The position numbers and the translations under genes are program-made. Shown piece by piece: positions 12,318-43,119 of a DNA stretch of 44,260 nt. The notes under the pieces were generated by a model. The model was given only the letters and a program-made list of their open reading frames with translations, ran no database searches and had not been told where the DNA came from. The stretch spans positions 1-44,260 of the forward strand of contig CACENJ010000007.1 of NCBI GenBank assembly GCA_902560855.1, given 5' to 3'. Every line of letters starts with the position of its first letter. Position 1 is the first letter of the stretch. The stretch is from an uncultured Pelagibacteraceae bacterium. Lineage in GTDB: Bacteria; Pseudomonadota; Alphaproteobacteria; Pelagibacterales; Pelagibacteraceae.

Positions 12318-13871
12318 TCAATCTTTATAAATTTTATCTCTTGCAGACATTATTAATTCATCTGCTTCACTTTTTTGTAAAGCAAAATCTTCTAAATAAC
12401 CTTTGATTTTTACCCGTTCACCCTTAATTATATCATAAGTGCCTGTTAATTCATCTGATGATAAATCTGCAAAATCAGAAAGTTTTAAAATTTTTTGTTC
12501 TCCAAGAGTTACTAACATTCCAAGCGTAAGTCCTTTATGATTTATTAGTTGTTCTTCTAGTCCTAAATCTTTAATTTTGTTCGAAATTTCTTCTTGATCC
12601 TTTAAATAAAATTCGTTGGCCCTTTCAATTAATTCTTTGGCCGTATCTTCCTCAATACCTTCTATTTTTGACAAAGTTTCTGTATTGCTATCTTTTATAT
12701 CATCAATTGTAGAAAAACCTTCGGCAACAAGCAGTTGTCCCAATGTTTCATCTAATTCCAAATTTTTAACAAAGTTTTCTGTTTTTTCTTTAAACTCTAA
12801 TTGTCTTTTTTCTGAGTCTTCTTGATCAGTCATTATATTAATTTCATAGTTAATTAGTTTTGTAGCCAATCTTACATTCTGTCCTCTTCTACCAATTGCT
12901 TTACTTAAATTTTCTTCGCTTAAAATTACGTCGAGTTTTTTAGAATCATTATCTACATTTACTCTTTGTATTTCTGCTGGAGATAATGCGTTTGCAACTA
13001 ATATAGCTGGATCTTCTGACCAATTTACAATATCTATTTTTTCTCCTTGCAGTTCATTTACTACCGCTTGAACTCTACTACCTCTCATACCAACACATGC
13101 ACCTACTGGATCTAAAGAAGTATCTATTGCTTTAACACAAATTTTTGCTCTACTACCTGGGTCCCTTGAAGAAGATTTAATTTCTATTAATCCATCGTAA
13201 ATTTCTGGAACTTCTTGTATAAAAAGTTTTTCCATGAACTTAGGATGTGCTCTAGATAAAAATATTTGTTGTCCTCTTGTCTCTCTTCTAACATCATAAC
13301 AATATGCCTTTATTCTATCTCCAGTTTTAATATTCTCTCTTGGAATTAATTCATTTTTTTGAATAATTGCTTCGGCTTTCCCTAGATCTACAATTACATT
13401 ACCAAATTCTAGTCTCTTAATAATTCCACTTAGTATTGTATCCTTTTTATCAATAAAATCATTAAATTGTCTTTCTCTCTCTGCTTCTCTTACATTAAAA
13501 CTTATTACTTGTTTTGCAGTTTGTGCAGCAATTCTTCCAAAGTCAAAAGAAGGTAAAACTTGTAAAACTTCATCTCCAAGTTTTTTATCTTTATTTTCAT
13601 CTGTTAGATTTTGGGCATCTTTTAAACTTATTTCTGTATTAAGATTTTCAGGTTTTTCTACAATTGTTAACTGTCTAAAAATTTCAATATTTCCACTTTT
13701 TCTATCAATTTGAACTTTTATTTCGTTGTCTTGCCCAAATTTAGATTTGGCTGCTTTTGCTATACCAATTTCCATCGAATTTATTATTAATTCTTTATCA
13801 ATTGACTTTTCTAAAGCTACAGCTTCTGCAATTCTTAAAAGTTCTAGTTTATCTGCTCTTCTATTTAACAT
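12318..13871 (-). CDS. nusA: Transcription termination/antitermination factor NusA
   Basis: A 517-residue RNA-polymerase-binding factor that controls pausing, termination and antitermination. The order is N-terminal RNAP-binding domain (1-130), S1 domain (about 135-200), two KH domains (GACVGMRGSRVQAVVNEL; AIGRRGQNVRLATKLINYE) and C-terminal acidic helix-hairpin-helix repeats (LGQLLVAEGFSTIDDI, TLGMLVTLGEQKILKLSDFA). The start is ATG 13871 with GGAAG at 13881-13885. That Shine-Dalgarno directly follows the T-run of a terminator-like hairpin, so the leader may act as an attenuator. rimP, the usual upstream partner, is absent. Confidence 0.97.
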   Translation of the reverse strand: MLNRRADKLELLRIAEAVALEKSIDKELIINSMEIGIAKAAKSKFGQDNEIKVQIDRKSGNIEIFRQLTIVEKPENLNTEISLKDAQNLTDENKDKKLGDEVLQVLPSFDFGRIAAQTAKQVISFNVREAERERQFNDFIDKKDTILSGIIKRLEFGNVIVDLGKAEAIIQKNELIPRENIKTGDRIKAYCYDVRRETRGQQIFLSRAHPKFMEKLFIQEVPEIYDGLIEIKSSSRDPGSRAKICVKAIDTSLDPVGACVGMRGSRVQAVVNELQGEKIDIVNWSEDPAILVANALSPAEIQRVNVDNDSKKLDVILSEENLSKAIGRRGQNVRLATKLINYEINIMTDQEDSEKRQLEFKEKTENFVKNLELDETLGQLLVAEGFSTIDDIKDSNTETLSKIEGIEEDTAKELIERANEFYLKDQEEISNKIKDLGLEEQLINHKGLTLGMLVTLGEQKILKLSDFADLSSDELTGTYDIIKGERVKIKGYLEDFALQKSEADELIMSARDKIYKD

Positions 13872-13884
13872 ATTTCATTACTTC

Positions 13885-13912
13885 CAAAAAAAAATGGGCC
13901 GAAGCCCATTTT
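13885..13912 (-). terminator. Intrinsic terminator/attenuator between metK and nusA
   Basis: Read on the minus strand, a GC-rich stem ATGGGC-TTCG-GCCCAT (flanked by A/T pairs; arms 13904-13912 and 13891-13899) with a stable UUCG loop is followed by a run of nine T residues. It lies 58 nt after the metK stop and ends immediately before the nusA Shine-Dalgarno. It can terminate metK transcripts. Because no promoter fits between it and nusA, it must also be crossed by nusA transcripts, which makes it a probable attenuator. Confidence 0.8.
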
Positions 13913-13927
13913 GAAATTTCAACAATG
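13907..13927 (-). promoter_or_regulatory. Candidate antiterminator hairpin in the nusA leader
   Basis: On the minus strand the leader reads CATT-g-TTGA-AATT-TCAA-AATG, a hairpin of eight pairs with one bulged G. Its 3-prime arm (13907-13912) is the same stretch that starts the 5-prime arm of the terminator, so the two structures exclude each other. This is visible in the sequence; regulatory function is inferred. Confidence 0.45.
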
Positions 13928-13934
13928 TATGGCG

Positions 13935-13962
13935 AATATATTTACTTTTTTTTAATTTTCAA
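13935..13962 (-). promoter_or_regulatory. Candidate sigma-70 promoter for nusA operon
   Basis: On the minus strand TTGAAA (13962-13957) and TATATT (13940-13935) are separated by 16 bp, a good match to the housekeeping consensus. The predicted transcript would start near 13928, at the edge of the candidate antiterminator hairpin, and give a leader of about 57 nt before the nusA ATG. AT-rich DNA produces such matches by chance, so confidence is moderate. Confidence 0.5.
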
Positions 13963-13969
13963 CTTCTTA

Positions 13970-15127
13970 TTATTCAAAAAGTCCTTTTTTATCAGTTTTT
14001 TCCCAAGAAAATGAACCATCGGACTCTGGTTCTCTTCCAAAGTGACCGTAAGCGGCGGTTTTTGAGTATATTGGTCTATTTAAGCTCAACATTTCTCTAA
14101 TTCCTCTAGGACTTAAATCAAAATTTTCACTTATTATTTTTTCTACATGTTTATTTTTCTCCTCATCATTATCAAAAAGATCAACATATATTGATAGTGG
14201 TTTTGATACACCAATTGCGTAAGCAAGTTGAATTAAACACTTATCAGCAATTTTTGATGCAACAACATTTTTTGCTAAATATCTTGAAGCATACGCTGCA
14301 GATCTATCAACTTTTGTTGGATCTTTTCCAGAAAATGCTCCACCTCCATGAGGTGCTGCACCTCCATAAGTATCAACTATAATTTTTCTACCTGTTAAAC
14401 CACTATCGCCATCAGGCCCACCAATTACAAAGTTACCTGTTGGATTAATATAAATTTCAGTATCATCTAATCCATTAATCAAATTTTTTGGAATAGATTT
14501 TTCAATATAAGGTTTTACCAAGTCCCTGACTTGTGATTGATTTACATCTGCAGAATGTTGTGTTGATATAACAACAGATTTAACTGATGATGGTTTTCCA
14601 TCCTTATACTGGATTGTAATTTGACTTTTTGAATCTGGTTCAATATTTTTTAATTTTCCAGATTTTCTATCTTCCGCCATCAATCTTAAAATTTTATGCG
14701 AGTAATGTATTGGTGCTGGCATTAAAACATCAGTTTCATTGCAAGCATAGCCAAACATTATACCTTGATCGCCAGCTCCTTCATCTTTATTTCCAGTTGC
14801 ATCAACCCCCATTGCAATATCCGCTGATTGGGAATGTAAAAAAGCATCAATGCTAACATTTTTCCAATGAAAACCTTCTTGTTCATATCCAATATCTTTA
14901 ATGCAATCTCTAACCTTTAAAATTAATTCATCTTTTTTTATTTCGGGACCACGTGTTTCTCCTGCTAAAACAACTTTATTTGTCGTTGTTAATGTTTCGC
15001 AAGCTACTCTTGATTGTGGTTCTGAATTTAAATAAGTGTCAACCACCATATCGGAAATTCTGTCACAAACTTTGTCTGGATGTCCTTCTGAAACTGATTC
15101 ACTAGTAAATAAATAATCTTTCTTCAT
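13970..15127 (-). CDS. metK: S-adenosylmethionine synthetase
   Basis: A 385-residue enzyme that makes SAM from methionine and ATP. Signatures seen are [14 protein letters not shown] (methionine/ATP loop), [12 protein letters not shown], and the P-loop-like [21 protein letters not shown] followed by [18 protein letters not shown]. Length is normal for the family. Its ATG at 15127 overlaps the last base of the lnt stop codon, so it is the last gene of the phoH-ybeY-lnt-metK series. A terminator-like hairpin follows before nusA. Confidence 0.97.
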
Positions 15128-40449: not shown

Positions 40450-42036
40450 ATGAAAAATCTTTCAAAATCTGATTATTTAAAATCAGAATATAGCAAAATT
40501 AATAAATTATTTTTATCTGGTAAATTTAATCTGGTAATAGAAAAAACAAAAAAAATTCTTAAAAAAAATTCCTCTCAAATACCTTTTTATAACTTGTTGG
40601 CTTTATCATATAGAGAATTAGGTAAAATATTTTTAGCTGAAAAAATATTAATTGATGCTTTAAAAATAAGTGAAAACGACCAAAGTGTTTTGGTTAATTT
40701 AGGATCAACATATAGAGTTTTAATAGAATTTGAAAAATCTGAAAAATTCTTAAACAAAGCACTTTCAATTAATCCTAATAATATCAATGCTTTGGTAAAT
40801 TATGGAAACTTAAAAAGGGATACAAATAATTATAATGAAGCTATTAATTTGTATGAAAAAGCTTACGACATGGATAATAAAAATCCTATCATAATAATAA
40901 ATTTAGCAGGAACTTATCAAATCGTTGGAAAATTCGAATTGTCAGAAAAATTATTAAAAAATTTATTAAAAGAAAATCAAAATAATGCACTTGCTCATAA
41001 AATGTTAAGTACTATAAAAAAATATGAAATCAACGATGAACATCAAAAAGAAATGATTTTAATTTTAAAAGATAAATCTTTGAAAGATTATGACCAGGCA
41101 ACTTTATCTTTTGCAATCTCAAAATCGTTTGAGGATCAAAAAAATTATGAAAAATCTTATGAATATTTTAAGAAAGCCAATGATATTCAAAAAAAAATAC
41201 ATAATAAATACTCCAGTAGCCAAGAAGTTTTGCTGTTTGACAAAATAAAAAAAATTTTTAACAAAACTAATTTTGAGAATTATCAAAATAATTTACATAA
41301 TAAAAATTTAATATTTATTGTTGGATTACCAAGATCGGGTACTACTTTAGCACATCAAATTTTAGCAGCACATTCAGAAATACATGGTGCAGGAGAAATA
41401 GTTATTTTAGACCAATTCATAAAAAGAAACATTGACAACAAGGATTTAACCTCGCTTTTCAAGAATTATAATAAAGAAAGAAATATAAAAGTAATAGAAA
41501 TTGCAAATAGCTATTTTTCAAAAATAAGCTATATAAAAACCGAAAAAAAAATAATTTTAGATAAAAATCCATTAAATTTTCAATGGTTAGGGTTTATTAA
41601 AATTTTATTTCCAAATTCTAAAATTATTCATTGTACAAGGAATCTTAAAGATACAGCGTTATCAATTTACAAAAATGCATTTGACATAAATTCGATTATT
41701 TGGAGCAATAACCAAGATGATCTAGTTAAATATATTGAGTTATACTTAGATTTGATGAAGTTTTGGAAAAATAAATTTCCAAACTTCATTTATAACTTAA
41801 ACTATGAAAAATTAATTAATGAAAAAGAAAAAGAAATTAAAAAAATTCTTAATTTTTGTGAATTAAATTGGGAAGATGATTGTATGAATTTTAATAAGAA
41901 AGACAATCCTATCAAAACTGTTAGCATTAATCAGGCAAGAAAACCTATTTATAATACATCTCTTAATACATATGCGAGATATAAAAAACTATCTGATATG
42001 TTTGCAAAAATAGAAGAAGTTGAAAGAAGTTGTTAA
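40450..42036 (+). CDS. TPR-repeat sulfotransferase family protein
   Basis: A 528-residue protein. Residues about 15-240 form tetratricopeptide repeats (SVLVNLGSTYRVLIEFEKSEKFLNKALSINPNNINALVNYGNL). The C-terminal half is a sulfotransferase domain with the PAPS 5-phosphosulfate loop LPRSGTTLAHQIL and the 3-phosphate segment IIHCTRNLKDTALSIYKNAF. The acceptor is unknown; TPR-sulfotransferases are frequent in SAR11 and other marine bacteria. A shared terminator follows. Confidence 0.87.
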   Translation: MKNLSKSDYLKSEYSKINKLFLSGKFNLVIEKTKKILKKNSSQIPFYNLLALSYRELGKIFLAEKILIDALKISENDQSVLVNLGSTYRVLIEFEKSEKFLNKALSINPNNINALVNYGNLKRDTNNYNEAINLYEKAYDMDNKNPIIIINLAGTYQIVGKFELSEKLLKNLLKENQNNALAHKMLSTIKKYEINDEHQKEMILILKDKSLKDYDQATLSFAISKSFEDQKNYEKSYEYFKKANDIQKKIHNKYSSSQEVLLFDKIKKIFNKTNFENYQNNLHNKNLIFIVGLPRSGTTLAHQILAAHSEIHGAGEIVILDQFIKRNIDNKDLTSLFKNYNKERNIKVIEIANSYFSKISYIKTEKKIILDKNPLNFQWLGFIKILFPNSKIIHCTRNLKDTALSIYKNAFDINSIIWSNNQDDLVKYIELYLDLMKFWKNKFPNFIYNLNYEKLINEKEKEIKKILNFCELNWEDDCMNFNKKDNPIKTVSINQARKPIYNTSLNTYARYKKLSDMFAKIEEVERSC

Positions 42037-42040
42037 AAAA

Positions 42041-42069
42041 AAAGGCCCCGTAAATATTACGAGGCCTTT
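42041..42069. terminator. Bidirectional terminator between sulfotransferase and porin genes
   Basis: A stem of AAAGGCC and GGCCTTT extended by CGTAA/TTACG closes a short loop. Read on the minus strand it ends in a run of nine T residues and so is a strong terminator for the porin mRNA. On the plus strand the tail TTTAATTTT is weaker. It fits the convergent gene arrangement. Confidence 0.88.
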
Positions 42070-42093
42070 AATTTTGTTTACTATTCTAATTAA

Positions 42094-43119
42094 TTAGAAT
42101 GCAAAAGTTACACCAACTTCAGTGTGTTCTGATTCATTGTTAACAGAATTAGATACATTGTCTCCAGTATTTCTGTGAACTTTGAAAGTCATTCCACCAG
42201 AAGTGTAAGATGCTGACCAACCTTCTGCTTCTTCGTCAGTAGTCTTAGCAGAATCATCATTTTCATGAGATTGGTATGAAATAGACATTTCATCATTTAC
42301 AGCGTAAAGAACACCCCATCTAGTTTGTTCATCATCGTTAGTAGTTCCAAAAGTATCAATGTTACTCATTTGGTAACCAACTGTTACAGGTCCGTAAACG
42401 TAAGTTGCGTAAACTGTTTGATGATCGTCAGTTTGGCTGCTGTCTCCAGCTGTACCAGTCTTAGCTTCACCAACACCAATACCAACTTCTAAGCCATCCA
42501 TTGGATCCAATTTAACGAAACCAGATACGTTAGAAGCACCAGCTCCAGCACCATCTAGTCCACCTTGTGCACTACCAGCTGTAGATTTTGGTGCATAACC
42601 AATACCAATTTCTATCATGTCGCTAACAGTTTTTGAGTAATGGAAACCTTGAGTTCCACCAGATACAGTACCTGATAGACCACCTGAACTTCCAGAACCA
42701 TCTACGTCGATACCATTTCCAACGTCTTCGTCAGCAGTTGGCATCATGTCTTTGATTTTTCCAATACCTCTAGCACCTGTGTCAGCTTCATAGTTCAATG
42801 AACCTAAGTCGCCCATATCAACAGTCATACCTAGACCAGTTGAAGAACCATCAGCCAAAGTTTGTGAAACAGAAACAGTCCAACCGTTATCCATTTCTCC
42901 AGAACCGCTAAAAGAAAGAGATTTATTTAATCCCCATCTGTTACCATCTTGTCCTACTTGAGTACCAGACGCAGCATCACCTGCGTTATCTTCCGCTCCA
43001 CTGTTTGCAGTGTAAGTTAAATTAGCAGTACCGCTAACTGTTACAGCTCCAGCAAATGCAGAAGTTGCTACCAAAGAACCAGCAAGAGCTGTTAATCCAG
43101 CTTTTTTCCAGTTTTTCAT
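42094..43119 (-). CDS. Major outer-membrane porin
   Basis: A 341-residue porin with a textbook signal peptide (WKKAGLTALAGSLVATSAFA, cleavage before GAVTVSG). The mature protein is Gly/Asp/Ser/Thr-rich with alternating beta strands, and ends in VGVTFAF, the aromatic C-terminal signal recognised by the BAM complex. A strong Shine-Dalgarno AGGAGA (43125-43130) precedes the ATG, unlike the weak sites of its neighbours. Base and codon use are visibly richer in G and C, the pattern of a very highly expressed gene. Its own promoter, leader hairpin and terminator mark it as a single-gene unit. The selectivity of the pore is unknown. Confidence 0.87.
   Translation of the reverse strand: MKNWKKAGLTALAGSLVATSAFAGAVTVSGTANLTYTANSGAEDNAGDAASGTQVGQDGNRWGLNKSLSFSGSGEMDNGWTVSVSQTLADGSSTGLGMTVDMGDLGSLNYEADTGARGIGKIKDMMPTADEDVGNGIDVDGSGSSGGLSGTVSGGTQGFHYSKTVSDMIEIGIGYAPKSTAGSAQGGLDGAGAGASNVSGFVKLDPMDGLEVGIGVGEAKTGTAGDSSQTDDHQTVYATYVYGPVTVGYQMSNIDTFGTTNDDEQTRWGVLYAVNDEMSISYQSHENDDSAKTTDEEAEGWSASYTSGGMTFKVHRNTGDNVSNSVNNESEHTEVGVTFAF

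Follow-up and report, generated by a model that had tools for sequence, protein, structure and literature searches.

A predicted rimP-leader-type attenuator placed directly before nusA in SAR11 bacteria

We consider it probable that the leader of nusA in SAR11 bacteria is an attenuator of the rimP-leader type without rimP, and that NusA most likely limits its own operon there. The leader was studied in a stretch of 44,260 nucleotides from an uncultured Pelagibacteraceae bacterium (contig CACENJ010000007.1 of assembly GCA_902560855.1), called here the window. On its minus strand, the interval from the metK stop (13970) to the nusA start (13871) holds a sigma-70-type promoter, followed by a hairpin and a run of nine T (Table 1). 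Promoter to U-run spans about 77 bp. Read on the minus strand, the hairpin is AAAATGGGC-TTCG-GCCCATTTT, and the first four T of the T9 can pair with AAAA. The initial annotation was right about the nine U and about a Shine-Dalgarno sequence directly behind them, since GGAAG (13885-13881) adjoins the T9; only the end of the U-run, placed at 13885, has to be corrected, to 13886.

Table 1. The nusA leader and its neighbours in the window
Feature	Position	Strand	Remarks
-35 hexamer TTGAAA	13957..13962	-	Read in the sequence; comparison of relatives
-10 hexamer TATATT	13935..13940	-	16-nt spacer from the -35; comparison of relatives
Start-proximal box ACATTGTTGAA	13919..13929	-	Conserved in relatives; transcription would be expected to start near here
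Hairpin 1 of the initial annotation	13907..13927	-	Weak fold; poorly supported as a switch
Predicted intrinsic terminator of rimP-leader type, AAAATGGGC-TTCG-GCCCA + T9	13886..13912	-	Sequence and comparison
5' arm AAAATGGGC of the terminator	13912-13904	-	
Loop TTCG of the terminator	13903-13900	-	
GCCCA of the terminator	13899-13895	-	
T9 of the terminator	13894-13886	-	
Shine-Dalgarno-like GGAAG	13881..13885	-	Adjoins the U-run; read in the sequence
nusA, the putatively regulated gene	12318..13871	-	ATG at 13871; domains NusA_N, S1, KH_5, HHH_5
metK, upstream neighbour, outside the element	13970..15127	-	Stop TAA 13972-13970; product S-adenosylmethionine synthetase

Conservation of the promoter and the hairpin

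Statistics drawn from the window by itself are weak. Promoter-like sites in 13 kb number 60, against 69.5 expected from shuffles, so that by itself the promoter match does not exceed chance; a scan of the window gave 7 terminator-like sites, with 3.3 expected (sd 2.1), and the whole-leader fold is not unusually stable (z -0.32). The case for the element therefore rests on comparison, and the comparison of sequences confirms it as real, well beyond chance.

NusA was matched in 130 of 151 genomes of the genus. Loci were taken from the best 30 (the window's own included) and from the best 80 named Pelagibacteraceae contigs, whose NusA is 85-89% identical and whose membership of the genus is not assured. 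The 111 locus records, several of them the same genome from two collections, gave 100 distinct nusA upstream sequences; where metK was not found (L034/L083 and L111), a fixed upstream stretch was used. In all 100, the stem pairs T-A, G-C, G-C, G-C and C-G (core TGGGC/GCCCA) are invariant, and the loop takes 23 forms. GCCCA is followed by exactly T9 in 98 and by T10 in 2. The best-scoring -35 starts with TTGA or TTGT in every sequence, the spacer is 16 nt long in 98, and TATATT is present in 99, where it sits 22-24 nt ahead of AAATGGGC. The distance from the T-run to the nusA ATG is 10-17 nt in 98 sequences, with a Shine-Dalgarno-like tetramer a few bases from the T-run in 72 of the 100.

Base frequencies follow the same layout. 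Over 72 rows, one for the window and 71 for named contigs, the mean frequency of the major base is 1.0 for GCCCA plus T9, 0.99 for the 5' arm, 0.998 for the -10 and 0.90 for the -35; it is 0.78 for the loop, 0.72 for the promoter spacer and 0.54 for the discriminator. Third positions of nusA codons 1-50 average 0.735 (80 loci), below the value for GCCCA plus T9. The start-proximal box, found as ACATT[AG]TTGA in 87 of the 100 relatives, averages 0.93 in the 72 rows as against 0.54 for the discriminator, and its conservation in close relatives is real. The box, as ACATTRTTGAA, is specific to a clade; most of the sampled g2/g3 loci (L118-L126) carry a AAGTTACCTGG-like sequence at that place.

Beyond the close relatives, 40 outer loci were chosen by hand from 11 further genera of family f1 and 3 genera of family f2, a subset of the NusA matches obtained in 104 genomes out of 118 and 137 out of 147. 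GGG...CCC and exactly T9 are common to all 40, and T9 precedes even f2 nusA genes just 52-57% identical to that of the window. The stem is mostly ATGGG...CCCAT in f1, as opposed to GTGGG...CCCAC (or CCCGC) in f2. The inner pair is C-G in 28/28 outer f1 loci and varied in f2, being C-G, T-A, A-T or T-G in 11 of 12. Between the families there are thus compensatory changes from A-T to G-C, which may be one event, and from C-G to T-A or A-T, and these support the hairpin. In three f1 loci (L131, L134, L135) the pair beside GGG/CCC is lost, and CCC with T9 is kept.

A search of the genomes of the order with the pattern TGGGCNNNNGCCCAT9 gave exactly one copy in each of the 88 genomes, out of 147, that have it, always on the nusA strand and 8-18 nt ahead of nusA (88/88); the reversed control pattern had no match in the order genomes (n=147). 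By design the pattern misses f2, which has the other stem, and it also misses the three g12 genomes and one of the two g5 genomes searched. In the sole g1 genome without it (G252), a contig end truncates nusA, and in G202 nusA was not found.

The terminator 3' of the porin gene at 42094-43119 of the window served as a control. This terminator (42035-42083; AAAGGCCTCG...CGGGGCCTTT followed by T9) is a strong one at -20.1 kcal/mol, compared with -12.3 kcal/mol for the nusA terminator of the window by the same folding method. Among genus relatives the porin stems vary, a GGCC-rich stem often recurring, with energies of -16.7 to -21.1 kcal/mol; the nusA hairpins average -11.5 kcal/mol, a figure for the hairpin alone, whereas 40 nt of sequence farther upstream enter into the porin values. 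The porin T-run is 8 long in 12 loci, 9 in 10, 10 in 3, 7 in 1 and 6 in 1, a count made on 27 of 30 loci (L262, L268 and L276, shorter and cut by contig ends, were left out). The porin is a fair but imperfect control, because its protein, 31-51% identical in the relatives' loci, is far more divergent than nusA. By this sequence comparison, the nusA terminator is weaker, yet far more fixed in sequence, than this ordinary porin terminator.

The initial annotation had given nusA a promoter of its own and, between the two, a terminator that cannot be bypassed. The near-constant -10 and spacer bear out the promoter, and the predicted terminator was present in all relatives and outer loci checked. 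The placement of conserved promoter, hairpin and U9 likewise agrees with its prediction of an attenuator of nusA. Covariation of the terminator stem within Pelagibacterales, which it had proposed as a check, is found in the compensatory changes between f1 and f2.

Kinship with the rimP leader

The Rfam family RF01770 is the leader of the rimP-nusA operon and ends in a terminator. With this gammaproteobacterial model the window element scores 14.9 bits, below the gathering threshold of 47; unlike the members of RF01770, the SAR11 element falls outside that covariance model. At gathering level Rfam had no match to the window or to any of six related loci, and a permissive scan gave sub-gathering matches only, several of them on the opposite strand.

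The resemblance lies instead in the general form. As described in excerpts of Naville and Gautheret (2010; PMC2965389), the rimP-leader, which the initial annotation does not mention, is a terminator before rimP-nusA-infB whose GGGc...gCCC stem is unusually conserved and is followed by a U-stretch. It has no visible antiterminator, lies 4-130 nt from the gene start and may include the ribosome-binding site. The same excerpts call it the most ubiquitous transcription attenuator, and mention RimP as a possible effector, with NusA as probably the best candidate (PMC2965389). The SAR11 element shares with that description the GGG...CCC stem (100/100 and 40/40 loci), the U-stretch straight after it (T9 in 98/100 and 40/40), a distance of 10-17 nt from the first gene of the operon, which is inside the range of 4-130 nt, and the want of a convincing antiterminator, the sole candidate being hairpin 1 at -1.5 kcal/mol. 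It differs from the described form in that the first gene is nusA, not rimP, and in that the U-run is fixed at nine. Judged by its sequence features, the SAR11 element is of the rimP-leader kind, compact and placed directly on nusA.

RimP (PF02576) was found in none of 58 Pelagibacterales genomes, of which 39 are at least 90% complete; PF02576 was found in 10 of 14 control genomes, and RimP, a 30S maturation factor, in 85 of the 96 genomes of a class-wide sample. A strict GGGC...GCCC motif followed by T lies no more than 300 nt ahead of the RimP domain at 36 of 84 class loci and is absent from that interval at 48 (L247, with one base, was dropped from the 85). The control counts are 3 on the reverse strand and 2 in the next 300 nt, the latter control being slightly smaller as some loci have fewer than 600 bases upstream. 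The simplest reading of these distributions is that Pelagibacterales lost rimP while keeping the leader on nusA.

Among rimP-less genomes of the class outside the order, nusA was found in 7 of 9. One of these, L187, from another family of the class, has GGTGGG...CCCGCC and T9 directly before nusA and is perhaps an independent case. L191 has a different hairpin, GGGG...CCCC with a short U-run, before nusA, and in L186, L188, L189, L190 and L192 no clear match before nusA was seen by eye. These five genomes, the 48 class loci without the strict motif and the low Rfam scores count against our reading.

No title or beginning of an abstract that we found names a SAR11 nusA leader, and an entry in the supplementary lists of Naville and Gautheret is possible. 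In a paper on SAR11 structured RNAs, the main text mentions neither nusA nor metK (PMC2704228).

Proposed control by NusA

The NusA protein pauses RNA polymerase and promotes termination at hairpins. In B. subtilis, Mondal in 2016 reportedly found autoregulation of NusA through termination in the leader. Terminators that depend on NusA typically have weak hairpins or broken U-tracts; the U9 of SAR11 is unbroken, which counts against NusA-dependent termination. By analogy with the published rimP-leaders and with B. subtilis, NusA is nevertheless the likely effector of the SAR11 leader. The RNA would start near 13928 and end largely near 13886, after about 43 nt. A large share of polymerases would stop at the hairpin, probably with partial efficiency, and those that read through would make the nusA-infB mRNA, whose ribosome-binding site starts right behind the U-run. 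Abundant NusA would most likely raise the stopping fraction, and NusA would in this way limit its own operon.

Precedents for such control come from several bacteria. In B. subtilis, NusA autoregulation by NusA-stimulated termination in the 5' leader is reported in part of a review (PMC12288461); intrinsic termination in a leader gates the operon there, as is predicted from sequence for SAR11. The B. subtilis leader is about 180 nt long and precedes ylxS/rimP, according to excerpts of PMC2965389, unlike the SAR11 leader of probably about 43 nt before nusA. In S. agalactiae, the leader transcript of gbs0413-0418 ends at a predicted intrinsic terminator, 31 nt downstream of where it begins, as given in excerpts of PMC4448216. 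This is likewise a very short leader before a nusA-infB operon, for which NusA feedback was proposed, although rimP is present there and the phylum is a different one (PMC4448216, same excerpts). In E. coli also NusA controls its own operon (PMC6511841, in part).

Alternative readings and significance

The initial annotation had seen two mutually exclusive hairpins in the leader, so that an 8-bp hairpin 1 (13927-13907) would act as antiterminator in a two-state switch. Hairpin 1 can be drawn in the window, where it uses AAAATG of the terminator arm, but it leaves GGC/GCC free, and its predicted folding energy is -1.5 kcal/mol as against -11.7 kcal/mol for the terminator. Seven of its eight pairs are formed in at least 94 of the 98-100 aligned sequences (744 of 798 cells over all pairs), as a switch would have it; the pairs persist, however, because the sequence is nearly fixed, and the apical pair is broken in 39 of the 100 relatives. 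Covariation, proposed as a check for this hairpin too, amounts to one double compensatory change among 100 sequences, and this falls in L111, where the region upstream is rearranged. A hairpin formed with that arm comes out as the most stable fold, at -1 kcal/mol or lower, in 38/100 relatives and 8/40 outer loci. With a weak fold, near-absent covariation and patchy occurrence, hairpin 1 was rejected as antiterminator, and a two-state switch is highly improbable. It is more improbable still that the hairpin is the 3' terminator of metK, with nusA downstream by chance. In the window it does lie between the two genes, but a conserved promoter separates it from metK, and it keeps its position before nusA in L111 and in sampled loci of g5, g7, g9, g12 and f2, where the metK-nusA gap is about 710-880 nt and is filled, in both loci tested (L148, L133), by a TrmB-type methyltransferase gene. 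In L111, a close relative, lnt precedes nusA, the hairpin is kept, and metK was not found in the 7.5 kb fetched. As the neighbouring gene changes and the hairpin remains before nusA, its identity as a metK terminator was rejected. In the sequences compared, the element travels with nusA rather than with metK. Insulation of metK from nusA, suggested in the initial annotation, is then incidental, since the hairpin stays on nusA where metK is distant or replaced by lnt.

Other readings concern what the terminator does. It could be a fixed attenuator without feedback, setting a constant readthrough ratio or insulating nusA from upstream transcription and sensing no factor. We regard this as unlikely, although neither a convincing antiterminator nor a second conserved structure was seen and a U9 with no break might suffice for termination even without NusA. 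The stem sequence is invariant, whereas porin terminators of the same genus vary, and the element is kept in both families, while some members of the class carry the motif ahead of rimP. A plain terminator explains the element poorly, because the stem is invariant in sequence itself, beyond stability. The terminated RNA of about 43 nt could also be a trans-acting small RNA, which is very improbable. The conserved start-proximal box and the U-rich 3' end would suit such an RNA, and part of PMC5391140 lists, among ProQ-associated RNAs of enterobacteria, one that comes from the rimP leader, but the 5' box is missing from most outer loci. A leader peptide was rejected as well: read from the ATG in the stem, with T9 giving Phe-Phe-Phe, it would have lengths of 2-24 codons, with 4 of 98 stopping after two codons; the ATG is absent in 2 of 100, and the sampled f2 stems carry no ATG at that place.

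Within the preferred reading, namely limitation of the operon by NusA, a more specific form is conceivable, and we hold it as a tentative one with a rather small chance of being correct. NusA, or the polymerase with NusA bound, would recognise the GGGC/GCCC stem by its sequence, U9, which is roughly as long as the RNA-DNA hybrid, would be a calibrated set-point, and NusA alone would suffice; the boxes ACATTRTTGAA and, in g2/g3, AAGTTACCTGG would be further contacts.

SAR11 bacteria rank with the most abundant cells of the ocean and have few known regulators. The leader is kept on nusA while RimP was not found in the 58 genomes of the order searched, which argues against RimP as a required effector; the loss of rimP in SAR11 thus points to NusA rather than RimP. 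From promoter to U-run, the leader would be a very small natural construct, of about 77 bp, for self-regulation by NusA. If NusA does read the stem by sequence, the SAR11 case would show that no effector other than NusA is needed.
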